Made by a program: the position numbers and the translations under genes | Shown here: positions 6,617 to 18,691 of the stretch, in pieces | How the letters are laid out: every line of letters starts with the position of its first letter | Numbering within the stretch: the first letter of the stretch is position 1 | Notes under the pieces: generated by a model | Databases searched by the model: none | What the model saw: only the letters and a program-made list of their open reading frames with translations | What the model was told of the DNA's origin: nothing | Source: a virus | Length of the DNA: 31,184 bases | IMG/VR virus record: IMGVR_UViG_3300034102_002356 | Location: 1-31,184 of that record | Direction: 5' to 3' (one strand)

Positions 6617-7036
6617 ATGGCATACAAAACTAAATACAAACCCGAAAATAAACAAAAATATGTTGGGGATATTAACAATATAGTTTGTAGGTCTTTGTGG
6701 GAAAGATCTGTATGTAAATTTTTAGATCAAAATCAAAATATATTGAAATGGTCTTCCGAAGAAATACAAATACCATATTTGAATCCATTTGATAATAAAA
6801 TGCACAACTACTATCCAGATTTTTTAGTCCAATTTAAAGATGGAGAATCTTTAAAATGTTGGTTATTGGAAATAAAACCAAAAAAACAAACTTATTTAAA
6901 AGAAAATGCTTCGAAGAAAGAAAAAATAACTTGGGGCATCAATCAAGCAAAATGGAATGCTGCAAAAAATTATTGTGATAAAAATAATTTTGAATTTAAA
7001 ATACTAACAGAAAAAGAACTATTCACAAATGGCTAA
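6617..7036 (+). CDS. gp4: Head completion nuclease, gp4-like
   Basis: A 139-residue protein. It matches T4 gp4 (gp50/65), which acts on the filled head before tail joining: NIVCRSLWERSVCKFLDQN, then ILKWSSEEIQIPY, then the nuclease-like core YYPDFLVQF with WLLEIKPKKQ, then a W-x-A-A helix near the C-terminus. The PDF...EIKPK arrangement fits a PD-(D/E)xK-type active site (D about residue 75, E and K about 93-95). The annotated start is ATG at 6617. A TTG three bases earlier is less likely because the late box sits exactly 5 nt before this ATG. It overlaps the next gene by 8 nt. Confidence 0.85.
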   Translation: MAYKTKYKPENKQKYVGDINNIVCRSLWERSVCKFLDQNQNILKWSSEEIQIPYLNPFDNKMHNYYPDFLVQFKDGESLKCWLLEIKPKKQTYLKENASKKEKITWGINQAKWNAAKNYCDKNNFEFKILTEKELFTNG

Positions 7037-7589
7037 TCCACAAAACTCAATTTTTGAAATTAAAAATTTTTTTGGTAGGCATCTAGGACTGCAAAGAGAC
7101 AATAGATATAGTATTATATTTGAAAATTTGCCACCAGAAGTTCCAGTTTTACCTGAACAAGATTTATATTCAATAACAAGTGCTGCTGGCGCAAGAGGTA
7201 TCGATGCTATTGCTGACAATCTTGCTGGATATGGACCGGGAAGAATTGTACCTAGATCTCAAAAATTTGTTGGTGGAGTATTACTGACATTTCCAATAAC
7301 GAATGATAATTTTATTGTAGATTTTTTTAATAAATGGTTTAATTCAATTTATTCTGGTGGAAGAAATGCAAATAATAAACCTTATCTTGTTCAATATTAT
7401 GACACCCACGTTTATAATGTAAAAATGAGATTAAAAATATTAGATCCGAATGGAAATATAAACAAAACTCTTTTGTTTCATGAAGTGTTTCCAGTCGAAT
7501 GTATGCCTTTTGAATTTAATATGGCACAAGCAAATGAATATTTAAAATATCAAGTATTGATGAATTATCGTGAATTTACTTTAATTTAA
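7029..7589 (+). CDS. gp19: Tail tube protein, gp19 family (gp19 or gp54-like)
   Basis: A 186-residue protein of the T4 gp19 tube family, which stacks as hexamers to form the inner tail tube. Typical features are an N-terminal strand NRYSIIFENLP, the SAAGARGIDAIADN and PGRIVP region, VGGVLLTFPITNDNFIVDFF, then W..I, and the C-terminal FHEVFPVECMPFEFN. It is about 20 residues longer than T4 gp19 and lies beside gp4 and a gp26-like chaperone, so it could be the tube initiator gp54 rather than the main tube subunit. No Shine-Dalgarno is seen. The overlap with gp4 implies coupling. Confidence 0.75.
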   Translation: MANPQNSIFEIKNFFGRHLGLQRDNRYSIIFENLPPEVPVLPEQDLYSITSAAGARGIDAIADNLAGYGPGRIVPRSQKFVGGVLLTFPITNDNFIVDFFNKWFNSIYSGGRNANNKPYLVQYYDTHVYNVKMRLKILDPNGNINKTLLFHEVFPVECMPFEFNMAQANEYLKYQVLMNYREFTLI

Positions 7590-7590
7590 A

Positions 7591-8265
7591 ATGGAATATC
7601 AAATGGATTTAGCAAAAGAAATAAACAATTTTTTACCAAAATATAAAACTACATTGCCCTTTTCAAAAAAGGATGTAACGTTCGTACCATTTAAAGTAAA
7701 AGATGCAAAAAACATTGCTACTATTTTACAAGAAAATAACAGATATCTTGCTTTTAATGCTATGGTAGATATTTTAAAAAGAAACGTAGAAGGAGTTAAT
7801 GTTAATGATCTTTGTTTAGCGGATGCAGAATTTTTATTTTTACAAATAAGATCAAAAAGTGTTGATGAAATGTTAAATTTGGTATACAATAAAGAAAAAA
7901 TACAGATTAATATATCCGAGATAAAGGCAACAAATAGTCTACAAAATGAACAAATATCAGTTGGAGAAAATTTAGCAATTATTGTAAAAACGCCTACTGT
8001 TAAAGATTTATTGAAGATAAATGGGACAGAAAAAGAAGATTTTATTAAAGCATCAATAAAAAATGTTTTATTAAAAAATGAAATATACGATTGTTCAAAA
8101 TTTATGCCAGATGAAATAAAAGAAGTAATGGCAAATTTACCTTTAAATATCATAACAAAACTTGATGATTTTTTGAAAAAAGAACCACAGTTATATTTGT
8201 CAGTAGAAACTAGTGAAGGTAAGAAGGAGGTCTCCGGGTTACTTAATTTTTTTATCTATCGGTAA
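7591..8265 (+). CDS. gp26: Baseplate hub / tail assembly chaperone, gp26-like (zero-frame product)
   Basis: A 224-residue protein of the T4 gp26-type baseplate hub assembly family. The diagnostic segment is KKDVTFVPFKVKDAKNI near residues 26-45, followed by LCLADAEFLFLQIRSKSVDE (about residues 73-92). A second conserved part, IIVKTPTVKDLL, lies near residue 130. The frame ends in FFIYR just past a run of seven T. The overlapping -1 frame encodes the expected C-terminal extension, so two products are likely (separate entry). It starts 1 nt after the gp19-family gene. Confidence 0.75.
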   Translation: MEYQMDLAKEINNFLPKYKTTLPFSKKDVTFVPFKVKDAKNIATILQENNRYLAFNAMVDILKRNVEGVNVNDLCLADAEFLFLQIRSKSVDEMLNLVYNKEKIQINISEIKATNSLQNEQISVGENLAIIVKTPTVKDLLKINGTEKEDFIKASIKNVLLKNEIYDCSKFMPDEIKEVMANLPLNIITKLDDFLKKEPQLYLSVETSEGKKEVSGLLNFFIYR

Positions 8266-8306
8266 AGTTTTTTGATTTAGCTGATTATTTTTCAACTAAC
8301 TTTACC
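8224..8306 (+). promoter_or_regulatory. Programmed -1 ribosomal frameshift signal
   Basis: Three parts are in place. An SD-like AAGGAGG lies at 8224-8230. The heptamer T TTT TTT at 8247-8253 is phased as X XXY YYZ in the zero frame. A perfect 9-bp inverted repeat, GGTAAAGTT (8261-8269) and AACTTTACC (8298-8306), starts 7 nt past the heptamer and has a 28-nt loop. The geometry is that of known bacterial -1 sites such as dnaX and of tail chaperone genes. The SD-like site is somewhat farther upstream (16 nt) than in dnaX. Confidence 0.8.
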
Positions 8307-8456
8307 ATGATTAGCAAGTACAATTGGAGAATATCTGATATTGAAATGTTGGCACCTTGGGAGAGAGAAGTATACATTACATTAATTGTAGCCAACGAAG
8401 AAAGAAAAAAAGAACAAAACATGCAAAATTCAATAATGCAAGGAAATAATTTTTAA
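8253..8456 (+). CDS. -1 frame extension of the gp26-like chaperone (C-terminal 67 residues)
   Basis: After a -1 slip at 8247-8253 the ribosome reads 67 more codons to TAA at 8454-8456, for a product of 221 + 67 = 288 residues. The extension contains DLADYFSTNFTMISKYNWRI and then DIEMLAPWEREVYITLIVAN, a 'PWERe.Yi.L' motif typical of the C-terminus of T4-type hub assembly proteins. An internal ATG at 8307 has no Shine-Dalgarno. A separately started 49-residue protein from it is possible but less likely. The stop overlaps the ATG of the next gene by 1 nt. Confidence 0.7.
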   Translation, partial: YLSVKFFDLADYFSTNFTMISKYNWRISDIEMLAPWEREVYITLIVANEERKKEQNMQNSIMQGNNF

Positions 8457-9019
8457 TGAATGAAGAAAATAATATTTCAATGGATTTTGAAGCAGAGAGA
8501 CAACTAATGTCTCCTATTATTAATGTTTTTAATGAAGAAATTTCTACCACAAATAATGTTTTATTTGATCCAAAACTACCAGAGTCTAATTTGATTCAAA
8601 GCGCAGAGTCTACGCAATTACCACAAACAGAATTAATTGTATCTTCAACAACAAATGAAACAAATTCAATAGACAATTTATTACCAGATTCAAAATTAAT
8701 ATCTCAAAATTTTAGTGTAGAATTGCCAGAATCATCTTTTATAGTTCCTACAGAAACTATAGATTCTTTCAGTTCTCAGATGCTCCAACCACAATTTTCT
8801 AAAACAATATCTCCATCAAATGTTGATGGTGATATCGATTCTTTGTATCAAAAAACTAAATCTTTAGAACAAATGATTTTAGATTTACAAAATAAAGGTG
8901 ATGGTTGGTTAAAATCAAAAGAGAGAGATTCTTTTGAAGAAAGACCTACGGTAGAACCAACAAATTTGGTATTTGAACAAAGAAAAATGCGTTCTAGCAC
9001 TATTCCAGAATGGGCATAA
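8456..9019 (+). CDS. Acidic protein with LP-x-S-x-LI repeats, unknown
   Basis: A 187-residue acidic, Ser/Thr-rich protein that I do not recognise. A short motif recurs about every 20-25 residues: LPESNLI (about 41), LPQTELI (about 55), LPDSKLI (about 75), LPESSFI (about 90). After these come a predicted coiled-coil segment, SLYQKTKSLEQMILDLQNKG, and a charged C-terminus ending in EWA. It is the last gene of the tail operon, overlaps the chaperone extension (TAATG) and is followed by a terminator. Repeated short linear motifs of this kind often dock onto a repeated partner (inference). Confidence 0.7.
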   Translation: MNEENNISMDFEAERQLMSPIINVFNEEISTTNNVLFDPKLPESNLIQSAESTQLPQTELIVSSTTNETNSIDNLLPDSKLISQNFSVELPESSFIVPTETIDSFSSQMLQPQFSKTISPSNVDGDIDSLYQKTKSLEQMILDLQNKGDGWLKSKERDSFEERPTVEPTNLVFEQRKMRSSTIPEWA

Positions 9020-14232: not shown

Positions 14233-14885
14233 GTTATTCCTTTTTGTTCTTCAATAGTATTTACAATTGCTTTTGCAGCACCTTTTATAGAATTTAAAGC
14301 ATCCTTTGTATTAAAACCTGTCCCAGAAGATTTACCAAATTTTTTAATTGGGCATTCAAAAGAAGGCATCCACAATTTATTTGTTAATGCTGCTCTAGGA
14401 TTTTTTGAACTACAACCACATTTAGTACACCAACCCAGTTCTTCTTGATCTGGTTTTGGATTTACTTTATTTGGACACTCTTTACAAATATTTTTTCTTT
14501 CTTCATATATCTCAAGAGAAACTTTTCCATTAAAAAATTGAGATCCTTCTGCTTTTCCATATGAAAGAGCTTTTTTAAGAAAAGATTCACTTTCACCATT
14601 TTCTTCGTCGACTTTTTCATTTATAGAAGGATTGTATACATTAGTTTGTGGAAGTTTTGATTTTAATTCTTCCAATGATGGTCGCAAAAATCCCGGAATA
14701 TCCGGTGTTATATTTTTTCTTAATTCACATTCACTGCACTTTTTAATATTAGTTTCTTCATTTTTTAATGCACAAAATGAAGAACATTTGTTATTAATTT
14801 GCCAGTATACGCAATTAATTTTTTTATGTACAATTTTATTATTAGTTGTACATCTTTCGAATTGTGGTAAAACAATATTATTCAT
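14229..14885 (-). CDS. Cys-rich zinc-binding protein
   Basis: A 218-residue protein with at least 15 Cys. The N-terminal cluster reads NCVYWQINNKCSSFCALKN and KKCSECEL. The C-terminal cluster reads NICKECPNKV, GWCTKCGCSSKNP, FECPIKKFG, a pattern of two CxxC pairs closed by a 'CP..K.' end seen in several phage zinc-ribbon proteins. The basic/Ala-rich tail is helical. It overlaps the 1268-residue gene upstream and the Dps-like gene downstream, so all belong to one transcript. It may be an assembly or maturation partner of the large Cys-rich protein (inference). Confidence 0.6.
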   Translation of the reverse strand: MNNIVLPQFERCTTNNKIVHKKINCVYWQINNKCSSFCALKNEETNIKKCSECELRKNITPDIPGFLRPSLEELKSKLPQTNVYNPSINEKVDEENGESESFLKKALSYGKAEGSQFFNGKVSLEIYEERKNICKECPNKVNPKPDQEELGWCTKCGCSSKNPRAALTNKLWMPSFECPIKKFGKSSGTGFNTKDALNSIKGAAKAIVNTIEEQKGIT

Positions 14886-17800
14886 TATCTACTTGGACCT
14901 TTAGCCGTAATTATAATATGACTTCTGTTTATTGCAAGTGAATCTCTATTTGGATTTGGCTGGTATGTAGTATCAAAAGGCAAAAATCCTCTATCATTTT
15001 CTTCTACTTCATATTTTTTAATAGTAATGCTCAATCCTGGTGCTTCTGAGGCACATGATCTACCACAACCCAATTGTGGCCAAGGATTTATTGGAACATT
15101 CAAAGGCTCTAAACTATCACATTGCGCATCACTGGTATACCAAGCATACCTACTCCAACCAGACAAAGAAGCATAATCTATGCTTATTCCATTTTCTGGG
15201 CAATTTATATCTTGGCTTTCTACTTCTATTTTTAAATTTTCAATAAAATCTGGAGTTTGTAGTTTTCCTTCTTTTGTTCTTTGTTGACATAAATATTTTC
15301 TCCAATTTACAAATGATGGTGGGAATCCCCAACCATATCCTGCTCCAAGAGGACCACACGTTTTAAATTGATAACCATACTGACAATCCAAACCACCGGG
15401 ACAATCATCAGTTGGTGTTGCAGTTTTTGTCCATAAACATTCTTCTCCGGGACCAGAATATTTTTGACAATTTGCTCCAGAATTCAGTGCATCAATTTCT
15501 AATGATTGTACACAACCACATGCATGATATTCTTGACAATTTTCAGACATACATTCTGACAAATAAGTTAAAGTAGAATTTGAACCGCCTGTCTGTAAGT
15601 ATATTCTTTCTGTATCAAGTCCAAAATATTTTGGAGCAATCGAACAACTTGATAAGTAACATACTTCTGCAACTTCTCCCCTACCAACTAATTTTTCATC
15701 ACCACAATCTTCACAAAATTTAGAAATTCCAGCTCTAGCCTTTGGGCCCATAATATTTTGACCACAAGACCAATAACCAGACCAAGTTTTGTCTGATCCG
15801 GCAACACCCTGTTCTATAGCAGAAGATTCTCCGGGGCAAAATACTTCATTGCTTGAACCTTTACAAAGTATAGTATCTTCACCAGTGCATTTATTGCATC
15901 TGCAAGAACTTTTACATCCAGGACAAATGGGCTCACACCCATCTCCATCTGGAAAACAACATGCGTCGTATCCACCAAATGTTCCTGTTGGATTTCCTTC
16001 TTCGTCAACATCTGCTTCATAACAAATTCTGTTTTCCCCGGAAGAAGGATTGTAACATCCACCCGGGCAGAATATTATTCCCTGACCACACGGATCTGGT
16101 TCATCTATTTGACAAACTGCATCTTGTTCATCACATGCACACAAAGAACATTCAACTGCACACATATATTTTGGTGCATTGGTGGGAAATGGGGTTTCAT
16201 TAAACACGGGATATTGATTCATGTAATAACTATCCCTGCGGTATCCTTCTGCATCACCTATTGAACAAGTTGAGGATATCCATTCACAAGAATATTCTCC
16301 GTATAAAATACCACAATCATATGGTTCAAATCCCCTTGTAACTAATTCTTTTGCGTCTGAAATTGCATTGGGGTGAACTTTTAATCCAATATAAGAATTT
16401 CTATATCTGCATCCTTCTCTGTCAACAAAACTTGACATGGGGGATCCCGGATTTCCAGATGCGAATGGTATATCTGCATTTGCTCCAGTCCATCTTTTTG
16501 AATGTTCTGCCATTACATTAGATGCATTTCCCGGATCAATTACATCATCATTTTGATCTACATAAACAACGGGGCAGGATCCAGAACTTAAATAAGGTAA
16601 TAGTTTATTTGTTAATCCAAATACACAATTATCTCCTGTAGGCCAAGCAGCTGGAGTTCTAAATTGCACCTCTGGATTTGCGCAAAGATTTACCTGTGAT
16701 GGCATTGGCAATCCTTTGCTGTGGATTATCATTTTTAATCCACCGCTAAGTTCATTTGTTGAACCACCGGGCTGCGAATCACAATTGCAATTTGGATCAG
16801 TTGGAGAACTACTACATACAATGCACGACATTGCTTTTGTTTCAACTTTTACATCTAAAACAATAGGTCCTCTTTCTGCAAAAGATATTTTTCCTCCTAT
16901 TTTATTTGTCATGCAATGTAAAAATGGATCTACTGGAAGAGGGTCCATAAATCCTCCACCCTCTAACGGTATTGGACAACCTGTTACACATTCATCACAA
17001 GAAGAAGGTAATATTCTTTCATATCTTCCTGTATTTCCAGTTCCACTAGATCCTGTTGGGCCACTGTCACCATAACATGGATAATGTGCTACAGACGATC
17101 CTGTAGGTCCAGATGATGCTGTAGGTCCAGATGATGCCGTAGGCCCACATGATCCAGAATTATTTGTTGAGGGTGTTTTATTTTTATAACCAGATGGGCA
17201 ATCGCAACCTAGACTAGAAAAATGAGTTTCTGTTAATTTTTGAGTAACAGTTATTTTAAATTTTTTTTCGTCTGGTGTTCCTTCTTTAAATACTTTTTCT
17301 AAAGAATTTATTTGAACATCCCAATCTCTGAACACTCTCCAGACTTTTCCTTGATCTATATCAGAATGATCTAAAGTAAAAAGCACTCTAAGAGCATTTG
17401 TCGGTGTTTTATTTATCCACAGACCATCATCTTCGGGGCCAGCAGACCATTCAAATCCAGAAGCTTCTAATAATTCTATTTCACCATTTATGGCTTCACA
17501 ATCCATACCAAAAGACCATTCACCAAAACTTCTTGCCTGTTCGCTATAAGTGGGTCTACAAAAATCTCCATATATACCACCAAAACCGTCAAAATCATAA
17601 TCTGGCGGCGGGCCATCTTCCAATTCTTGCGCAAAAAATTTGGTTGGTACTACAACGTGAATACTAAATTTTCTCGGAAGCTGGCCTGAATTTGTTTTAT
17701 CATAAACATCCCATTCTGGGGTTGTATATCTATGTGCCGGATCCCACCAACAAAAAAATCTTCTCTTTTCTTCTGCGGTATTATAATTTGAAAGTTTTTC

Positions 17801-18691
17801 ACATGATTCGGGAACATCTTCCCAGCCAAATGGAGTTCCATTTGGATCTAATTCATAACATATTTCATCATTAGAACAATAAGATTTTAAACATCTCTGT
17901 GGGTTTTCATTTTCACAGGGATCTTCGCTTTCCCCATCGCCAATATTTGTTTCATCGTTACATGTGTCATTAAAAAGACTATTTTGTTCTGCGTATTTAA
18001 ATCTGTATGGCCATGGGCCTCTGGGCATTTTTGCAAAACTTTTATTACAACCTTCATTACCTAATAAATCAACAAATGCATAACATTCTGTCAACTCTTC
18101 CCAATTTATTTTTTCACTTTCATTTACATGATAAGATCCAACTGCATCTGGATGCGCTCTTAAATTTTTTGTTTTTCCATCAATATTTAAATTTATAACT
18201 TCTTGGTAAGAACCATTTACTTCTTTTTCAATTTTTAAATTAAATAAAATATCAAAAAATGAATCATCATCATTTTCGATATTTGTCATATTAAGGCCGT
18301 TGAACCAACACGGATATATTTCACCATAATATAATGCATCACCCCAAACATAACTTTGTTCTTTTAAAACATCTGAGGGGGTTCTAAAATTTATATAAGT
18401 ATCTAAATTTTTTACTTTTTTGCATTCCCAACAAGAATTTTCATCATATGTTCCATAACCTATTGCTGTTTCTAATGTGCCATCTTGTGAACATATGAAA
18501 TTGGTCATCACATGACCGACACTTGGTATATCGGTTGTTAACGTTCCTATAGGATTCCAATTAGGTTGTCCACATTGTTCTAAATTGCCTTCATTAGCAA
18601 ATAAATCATAACGATTATACCAATTTGCTCCAGAAAAATCATGGTCGCACCAACCTTCTTTAATATCACAACAACAAGCTTTTGTAGGCAT
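14885..18691 (-). CDS. Giant cysteine-rich virion-type protein (1268 aa)
   Basis: 1268 residues with about 77 Cys (roughly 6 percent), far above normal for a phage. Residues about 830-960 hold the densest part, with motifs such as CSLCACDEQDAVC, CPGGC, DACCFPDGDGC and CPGCKSSCRCNKC, like extracellular disulfide or metal modules. A unit 'CYEL..NG.PFGW....C' occurs twice (about residues 279-296 and 880-905). Residues about 512-553 are collagen-like (GPTASSGPTGSS). It lies with other virion-like genes and has a T4-type late promoter with a leader (GAGGTGA). An adhesin or tail appendage is a fair guess. No homologue is recognised. Confidence 0.65.
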   Translation of the reverse strand: MPTKACCCDIKEGWCDHDFSGANWYNRYDLFANEGNLEQCGQPNWNPIGTLTTDIPSVGHVMTNFICSQDGTLETAIGYGTYDENSCWECKKVKNLDTYINFRTPSDVLKEQSYVWGDALYYGEIYPCWFNGLNMTNIENDDDSFFDILFNLKIEKEVNGSYQEVINLNIDGKTKNLRAHPDAVGSYHVNESEKINWEELTECYAFVDLLGNEGCNKSFAKMPRGPWPYRFKYAEQNSLFNDTCNDETNIGDGESEDPCENENPQRCLKSYCSNDEICYELDPNGTPFGWEDVPESCEKLSNYNTAEEKRRFFCWWDPAHRYTTPEWDVYDKTNSGQLPRKFSIHVVVPTKFFAQELEDGPPPDYDFDGFGGIYGDFCRPTYSEQARSFGEWSFGMDCEAINGEIELLEASGFEWSAGPEDDGLWINKTPTNALRVLFTLDHSDIDQGKVWRVFRDWDVQINSLEKVFKEGTPDEKKFKITVTQKLTETHFSSLGCDCPSGYKNKTPSTNNSGSCGPTASSGPTASSGPTGSSVAHYPCYGDSGPTGSSGTGNTGRYERILPSSCDECVTGCPIPLEGGGFMDPLPVDPFLHCMTNKIGGKISFAERGPIVLDVKVETKAMSCIVCSSSPTDPNCNCDSQPGGSTNELSGGLKMIIHSKGLPMPSQVNLCANPEVQFRTPAAWPTGDNCVFGLTNKLLPYLSSGSCPVVYVDQNDDVIDPGNASNVMAEHSKRWTGANADIPFASGNPGSPMSSFVDREGCRYRNSYIGLKVHPNAISDAKELVTRGFEPYDCGILYGEYSCEWISSTCSIGDAEGYRRDSYYMNQYPVFNETPFPTNAPKYMCAVECSLCACDEQDAVCQIDEPDPCGQGIIFCPGGCYNPSSGENRICYEADVDEEGNPTGTFGGYDACCFPDGDGCEPICPGCKSSCRCNKCTGEDTILCKGSSNEVFCPGESSAIEQGVAGSDKTWSGYWSCGQNIMGPKARAGISKFCEDCGDEKLVGRGEVAEVCYLSSCSIAPKYFGLDTERIYLQTGGSNSTLTYLSECMSENCQEYHACGCVQSLEIDALNSGANCQKYSGPGEECLWTKTATPTDDCPGGLDCQYGYQFKTCGPLGAGYGWGFPPSFVNWRKYLCQQRTKEGKLQTPDFIENLKIEVESQDINCPENGISIDYASLSGWSRYAWYTSDAQCDSLEPLNVPINPWPQLGCGRSCASEAPGLSITIKKYEVEENDRGFLPFDTTYQPNPNRDSLAINRSHIIITAKGPSR

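Follow-up and report, generated by a model that had tools for sequence, protein, structure and literature searches.

The gene 26-like reading frame of this virus ends shortly after a run of seven T, behind which a second frame, one base back, stays open. This arrangement raises the question of whether a single locus yields two proteins, as the sequence-only reading had claimed when it proposed a programmed -1 frameshift in a T4-type gp26-like tail or hub chaperone. The locus was analysed within the whole stretch of DNA (31,184 nucleotides, called the window here) and among its relatives. The features of the site and of the gene that precedes it are the following.

7029-7589, + strand: tail tube-like gene, directly 5' of gene 26 (phrog_45 tail tube, E 1.4e-11)
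7591-8265, + strand: gene 26-like 0-frame ORF, predicted short form of 224 aa (PF12322, phrog_150 and AlphaFold model)
8224-8230, + strand: AAGGAGG, Shine-Dalgarno (SD)-like, inside gene 26 and 16 nt 5' of the heptamer
8247-8253, + strand: candidate slippery heptamer T TTT TTT, in phase with gene 26
8247-8456, + strand: -1 frame with the gp51-like extension (FF and 67 codons), stop at 8454-8456, predicted long form of 288 aa
8261-8269, + strand: 5' arm GGTAAAGTT of the putative stimulatory stem, beginning 7 nt past the heptamer
8263-8265, + strand: gene 26 stop TAA, within the 5' arm of the stem
8298-8306, + strand: 3' arm AACTTTACC of the stem, a perfect complement of 8261-8269

The heptamer, the 7-nt spacer, the 9-bp stem, the AAGGAGG and the open -1 frame were all found where they had been placed earlier, and the claimed lengths of 224 and 288 aa agree with the recomputed frames. 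In the 0 frame, the heptamer is read as part of AAT TTT TTT ATC TAT CGG TAA, which places X XXY YYZ in phase. All nine base pairs of the GGTAAAGTT/AACTTTACC stem are formed, enclosing a 28-nt loop. A TAA at 8244-8246 closes the -1 frame immediately 5' of the heptamer, and the frame is then open until its stop; therefore, entry from gene 26 is possible only at 8247-8265. The predicted products have 224 aa without a shift and 219 + 69 = 288 aa after a -1 slip. The window thus holds the components of a frameshift cassette, an in-phase X XXY YYZ in the frame overlap with a stem downstream and an SD-like AAGGAGG upstream. In-phase U UUU UUY occurs 12 times per 7297 codon positions across the whole AT-rich window. 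A Watson-Crick stem of at least 9 bp at that place arises in 0.4% of mononucleotide shuffles (8/2000), or in 7.5% if G-U pairs are allowed, and the fold z-score of the site is -2.8. A search of 8150-8400 against Rfam gave no match, even at E 1. As a single sequence, the site is only moderately improbable; it is the conservation among relatives that makes the case compelling.

Profile comparisons showed that the two frames correspond to two T4 genes. The 224-aa ORF matches PF12322 T4_baseplate (E 3.6e-27, 95.9 bits vs. a cut-off of 24.5) over its full length, with residues 16-221 aligned to positions 2-218 of the 219 in the profile, and it matches phrog_150 with E 1.6e-27. On these matches, the 0 frame encodes a predicted T4 gp26-type protein. 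Its AlphaFold model has a pLDDT of 90, and the nearest viral folds are gp26-type baseplate hub proteins. Searching the PDB with the same model gave no match at E <= 0.001 (3fgx appeared at E 1.4), and a fold common to gp26 and the G/GT-type chaperones is not supported by this search with a predicted structure. For the -1 frame, the matching profile is phrog_634 'baseplate hub assembly catalyst', i.e. gp51 (E 3.3e-15, profile positions 62-116 of 121), and the frame is by this similarity the C-terminal domain of T4 gene 51 rather than a mere extension of gene 26. Because the heptamer marks the exact opening of this gene 51-like frame, a -1 slip would join gp26 to gp51 in a protein of 288 aa. T4 gp51 itself consists of a gp26-like domain (PF12322, E 3.9e-52) and the domain that is encoded here in the -1 frame (phrog_634, E 1.2e-23). 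Thus, the frameshift product would resemble T4 gp51, and the unshifted product would resemble T4 gp26. However, the two T4 genes lie on opposite strands, with no heptamer and no frameshift. In the window's clade, the N-terminal part is common to the predicted short and long forms, and the C-terminal domain that only the long form has is under purifying selection. A passage of an earlier paper lists T4 gp26 and gp51 as hub assembly chaperones and describes gp51 as absent from the finished particle (PMC3004832).

Relatives were collected by gp26 and gp51 protein searches of viral contigs, giving 262 loci with both parts; some of these loci overlap on the same contig, and the tests therefore use dereplicated sets. 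The gp51 part lies in the -1 frame in 262 of the 262 loci, and each of them has an in-phase heptamer within the frame overlap (T TTT TT[TC] in 261, T TTT TTA in 1). Four more loci lack a gp51 match, apparently being cut by contig ends. In the cyanophages Syn19, P-TIM68 and P-SSM2, the rhizobial phage phiM12, the Pseudomonas phage pf16 and the Ochrobactrum phage OC, the same heptamer occupies the identical position and gp51 lies in the -1 frame. Close IMG/VR relatives from several metagenomes retain the heptamer, the stem and the frame. Within the window's clade, the median omega of the -1 frame is 0.13 with zero stops, vs. 0.81 and a mean of 7.2 stops for the same stretch read in the 0 frame; by this measure, purifying selection acts on the -1 frame. 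The sequence-only reading had proposed conservation of the heptamer, the stem and the -1 frame under purifying selection as a check of its claim, and this conservation was observed, with a simple hairpin present in about half of the wider family.

Codon comparisons were made for 89 diverse representatives with less than 70% identity. In the 88 representatives with T TTT TT[TC], the first Phe codon is always TTT, vs. 75% elsewhere in gp26 (log10 P of about -11), and the codon before it always ends in T (log10 P of about -19), where both P values were calculated under background codon usage and are not corrected for relatedness. The last base of the heptamer is free, with TTT and TTC at 64:24, which is the background rate. 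A fixed first Phe codon and a fixed preceding T, combined with a free last base, form the pattern that X XXY YYZ demands. Judged by these frequencies, codon usage accounts for neither the first TTT nor the preceding T. The 89th representative (L135) has T TTT TTA, in which the second conserved Phe of gp26 is replaced by Leu while the heptamer rule is kept.

The RNA around the heptamer shows further constraints. Hairpins anchored 4-10 nt past the heptamer average -4.15 kcal/mol in the representatives vs. -0.84 kcal/mol in dinucleotide shuffles, the commonest form having a 7-nt spacer and 9-10 bp, with stem sequences that are unrelated between clades. A simple hairpin at the expected place is missing in about half of the representatives, and the hairpin is thus not universal. 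All 45 distinct sequences compared from the window's clade have GGTAAAGT without a change. The codons TCG GTA AAG TTT are invariant in 49 of 49 clade sequences while nearby codons vary at third positions, and many of these loci were found by a peptide pattern including FFYLSVKF, whose degenerate back-translation favours amino acids, not codons. In 42 of the 45 distinct clade sequences, the 3' arm pairs where it does in the window. Six clade sequences have ACA or ACT in place of ACC, and all six contain a second perfect ACTTTACC 12 nt upstream; these six may be related and hence represent few events. By these comparisons, the RNA is itself under selection, with a 5' arm frozen at synonymous sites and a 3' arm that changes place when the usual one decays. 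Of 13 aligned clade members, 11 retain AAGGAGG. SD-like 4-mers occur 5' of the heptamer in 50 of the 89 representatives vs. 11% of background windows; their usual distance of 8-11 nt is shorter than the 16 nt in the window's clade.

The family of T4 provided a control. Ten Straboviridae-type phages (T4, RB43 and others) have a gp26 without the heptamer and a full-length gp51 in one frame. The sampled Straboviridae gp26 proteins keep Phe-Phe (Glu-Phe-Phe is coded as GAG TTC TTT in T4 gp26), and the gp51 domain is encoded only in fusion with the gp26 domain. However, Aeh1 and the KVP40-type phage V09, which belong to the same family as T4, have GAT TTT TTC and gp51 in the -1 frame, as in the marine and rhizobial phages. 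Thus, the heptamer tracks the gene layout and not Phe-Phe. T4 gp51 has a single-place match covering at least 80% of its length in 1334 GenBank records. The only relative found whose -1 frame does not lead into gp51 is the Synechococcus phage S-SCSM1 (L279, near 1470-1500), which keeps the heptamer as TCT TTT TTC and has gp51 in the +1 frame, apparently following a short insertion behind the gp26 stop.

A programmed -1 frameshift that yields a short and a long hub or tail chaperone, as claimed earlier, remains the best explanation of a heptamer and a -1 frame found in 262 of 262 loci and of an omega of 0.13. A programmed -1 ribosomal frameshift cassette at the end of gene 26 is given a probability of about 0.93. 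Separate gp51 genes are annotated in most of the deposited GenBank records, and gene 51 could accordingly be a gene with its own start, or one reached by reinitiation after the gene 26 stop, the heptamer then merely resulting from the conserved Phe-Phe. An ATG does occur 1-4 codons past the slip in some members, and in S-SCSM1 gp51 lies outside the -1 frame with an upstream ATG. However, the first 13 codons of the -1 frame past the slip contain no ATG in 72 of the 89 representatives, and no ATG, GTG or TTG in 48 of the 89; in the window, the first of these codons is at 8307, 18 codons past the slip. With so few early ATG codons, the conserved xxNYxxxNF block would be reachable only from gene 26 or a rare start, and the annotated gp51 starts in Syn19 and OC fall inside or after this block. 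The heptamer bases are also retained beyond codon usage, even in L135, where a Phe is lost, whereas the Straboviridae have Phe-Phe without the heptamer and gp51 only in the fused form. The independent start of gp51 was rejected as very unlikely, with too few early starts and a heptamer conserved beyond codon usage. A downstream part always present as a separate gene with its own ribosome site would have spoken against the earlier claim; instead, the sampled Straboviridae encode the whole long form as a second gene.

The remaining alternatives place the cause in the T run itself. Seven T can provoke transcriptional slippage, as is generally known, and RNA polymerase slippage would produce mixed mRNA and the same two proteins. 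However, many relatives have only six T (T TTT TTC), the hairpins begin 5-8 nt downstream, which is a ribosome-like distance, and a conserved in-phase heptamer is a translational signature, leaving polymerase slippage even less probable than a separate start. A run of seven T is also a classic indel site, at which a homopolymer frameshift mutation or an assembly error might have split one longer gene. Independent contigs, drawn from several metagenomes, share the same seven T, including that of a relative with a 75% identical protein, which excludes an assembly error. The break and its phase are identical in the 262 loci, also in finished GenBank genomes, and both frames are under selection on either side of the site. 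A sequencing error or a simple frameshift mutation, which the sequence-only reading had itself raised, is thus refuted by the relatives and has hardly any probability left.

Under a programmed frameshift, most ribosomes would read AAT TTT TTT ATC TAT CGG TAA and terminate, releasing gp26 of 224 aa. A fraction of them, paused by the hairpin 7 nt ahead, would slip one base back on T TTT TTT, probably assisted by the internal SD-like sequence behind the ribosome, and would continue into gene 51 to produce the 288-aa gp26-gp51 protein. Present in a fixed ratio, the two proteins would serve as the short and the long chaperone of tail assembly, like lambda G/GT and P2 E/E'. The sequences show the anatomy, the phase, the conservation, the homology to gp51 and the selection on both the -1 frame and the RNA; we infer the slippage at the heptamer and its rate, and likewise propose the chaperone role of the two forms.

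The lambda G/GT genes, just 3' of the tail tube genes, produce a short and a long tail chaperone by a -1 slip at G GGA AAG, close to where the first ORF ends. The locus studied here is alike in its position just 3' of a tail tube-like gene, in the predicted -1 slip late in the first ORF and in the predicted short and long proteins. However, the slip sequence differs, the proteins have no detectable relation in the PDB fold search, and no tape-measure gene lies directly 3'. P2 E/E' in the FETUD operon belongs to a contractile-tail phage and involves a -1 slip at the heptamer T TTT TTG. The contractile tail, the proposed -1 slip and the T-rich heptamer are in common with P2, but the protein family is another.

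The sequence-only reading knew of no description of such frameshifting for gp26-type genes, which appears out of date. According to papers that cite their work, Vladimirov, Gautam and Davidson reportedly identified the tail assembly chaperones of T4-like phages in 2022. A passage of the 2025 Adele paper (PMC12846349) cites that study (Virology 566:9-15) for poly-T slip signals located within the TAC-N genes of T4-like phages, and a passage of the PRFect paper (PMC10885494/PMC10274946) cites it for some T4-like phages that have a short and a fused long gene and do not frameshift. From these descriptions and the T4 sequences, we infer that the genes meant are 26 and 51. As far as the citing passages describe them, these chaperones are alike in having a short form and a long form with an extra C-terminal part. 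None of the papers searched combines 'hub assembly catalyst' with 'frameshift', and gp26 frameshifting is not treated in PMC10448857 or PMC8785237. The concept counts as published. To it, the present analysis adds a new clade, the scale of the comparison, the RNA signals and the division within the Straboviridae.

The distribution of the two layouts somewhat favours a gp26-gp51 frameshift fusion that is ancestral and widespread in T4-like phages (cyanophages, pelagiphages, rhizobial, Aeh1 and KVP40 types) and that is driven by an SD/heptamer/hairpin cassette under selection, its 3' arms being exchangeable; the separate T4 genes 26 and 51 would then be derived by duplication with fusion. The direction from frameshift to duplication is read from this distribution only. 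The proposed frameshift also offers a simple reading of the T4 genes 26 and 51, whose products have long counted as hub assembly chaperones: they would be a single chaperone that comes in two lengths, short and long. One phage family would reach the same pair by two genetic routes, through a frameshift in the Aeh1 and KVP40 types and through two genes in the T4 and RB43 types, which makes the need for a fixed short:long ratio testable. If the frameshift is ancestral, hundreds of annotated 'gp51' genes are mis-annotated halves of one protein. Most GenBank records that have this layout probably err in the common practice of annotating gp51 as a small gene of its own. The deposited gp51 starts of Syn19 and OC lie 3' of part of the conserved gp51 sequence, so that the small genes annotated there probably represent the real frame in truncated form. 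Comparison documents the RNA signal unusually well, and the relatives form a good natural set for the tuning of -1 slippage by spacer, stem and SD outside the E. coli model sites. In the RB43-type phages L274 and L275, gp51 directly neighbours gp26 on one strand, with 51 before 26 (order 51-26), beside gp48/gp54 and gp25. Unlike the divergent T4 pair, this order could possibly inform the origin of the two-gene state.

The phages phiM12 and Cr30 have an annotated tape-measure-like gene shortly 3' of the locus, whereas the window has the tail tube-like gene 5' and no adjoining tape measure. The largest gene of the window is a 1268-aa ORF (14885-18691, - strand) with no convincing family match in Pfam or PHROG. 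The position 3' of gene 51 is occupied by a 187-aa gene (8456-9019) whose start codon overlaps the gp51 stop and which is not a tape measure. This gene matches no Pfam or PHROG family, and it has a repeated LPE(S/P) motif. A homologue likewise lies 3' of gp51 in L008, whereas other T4-like phages have a tape-measure or another large tail gene there.
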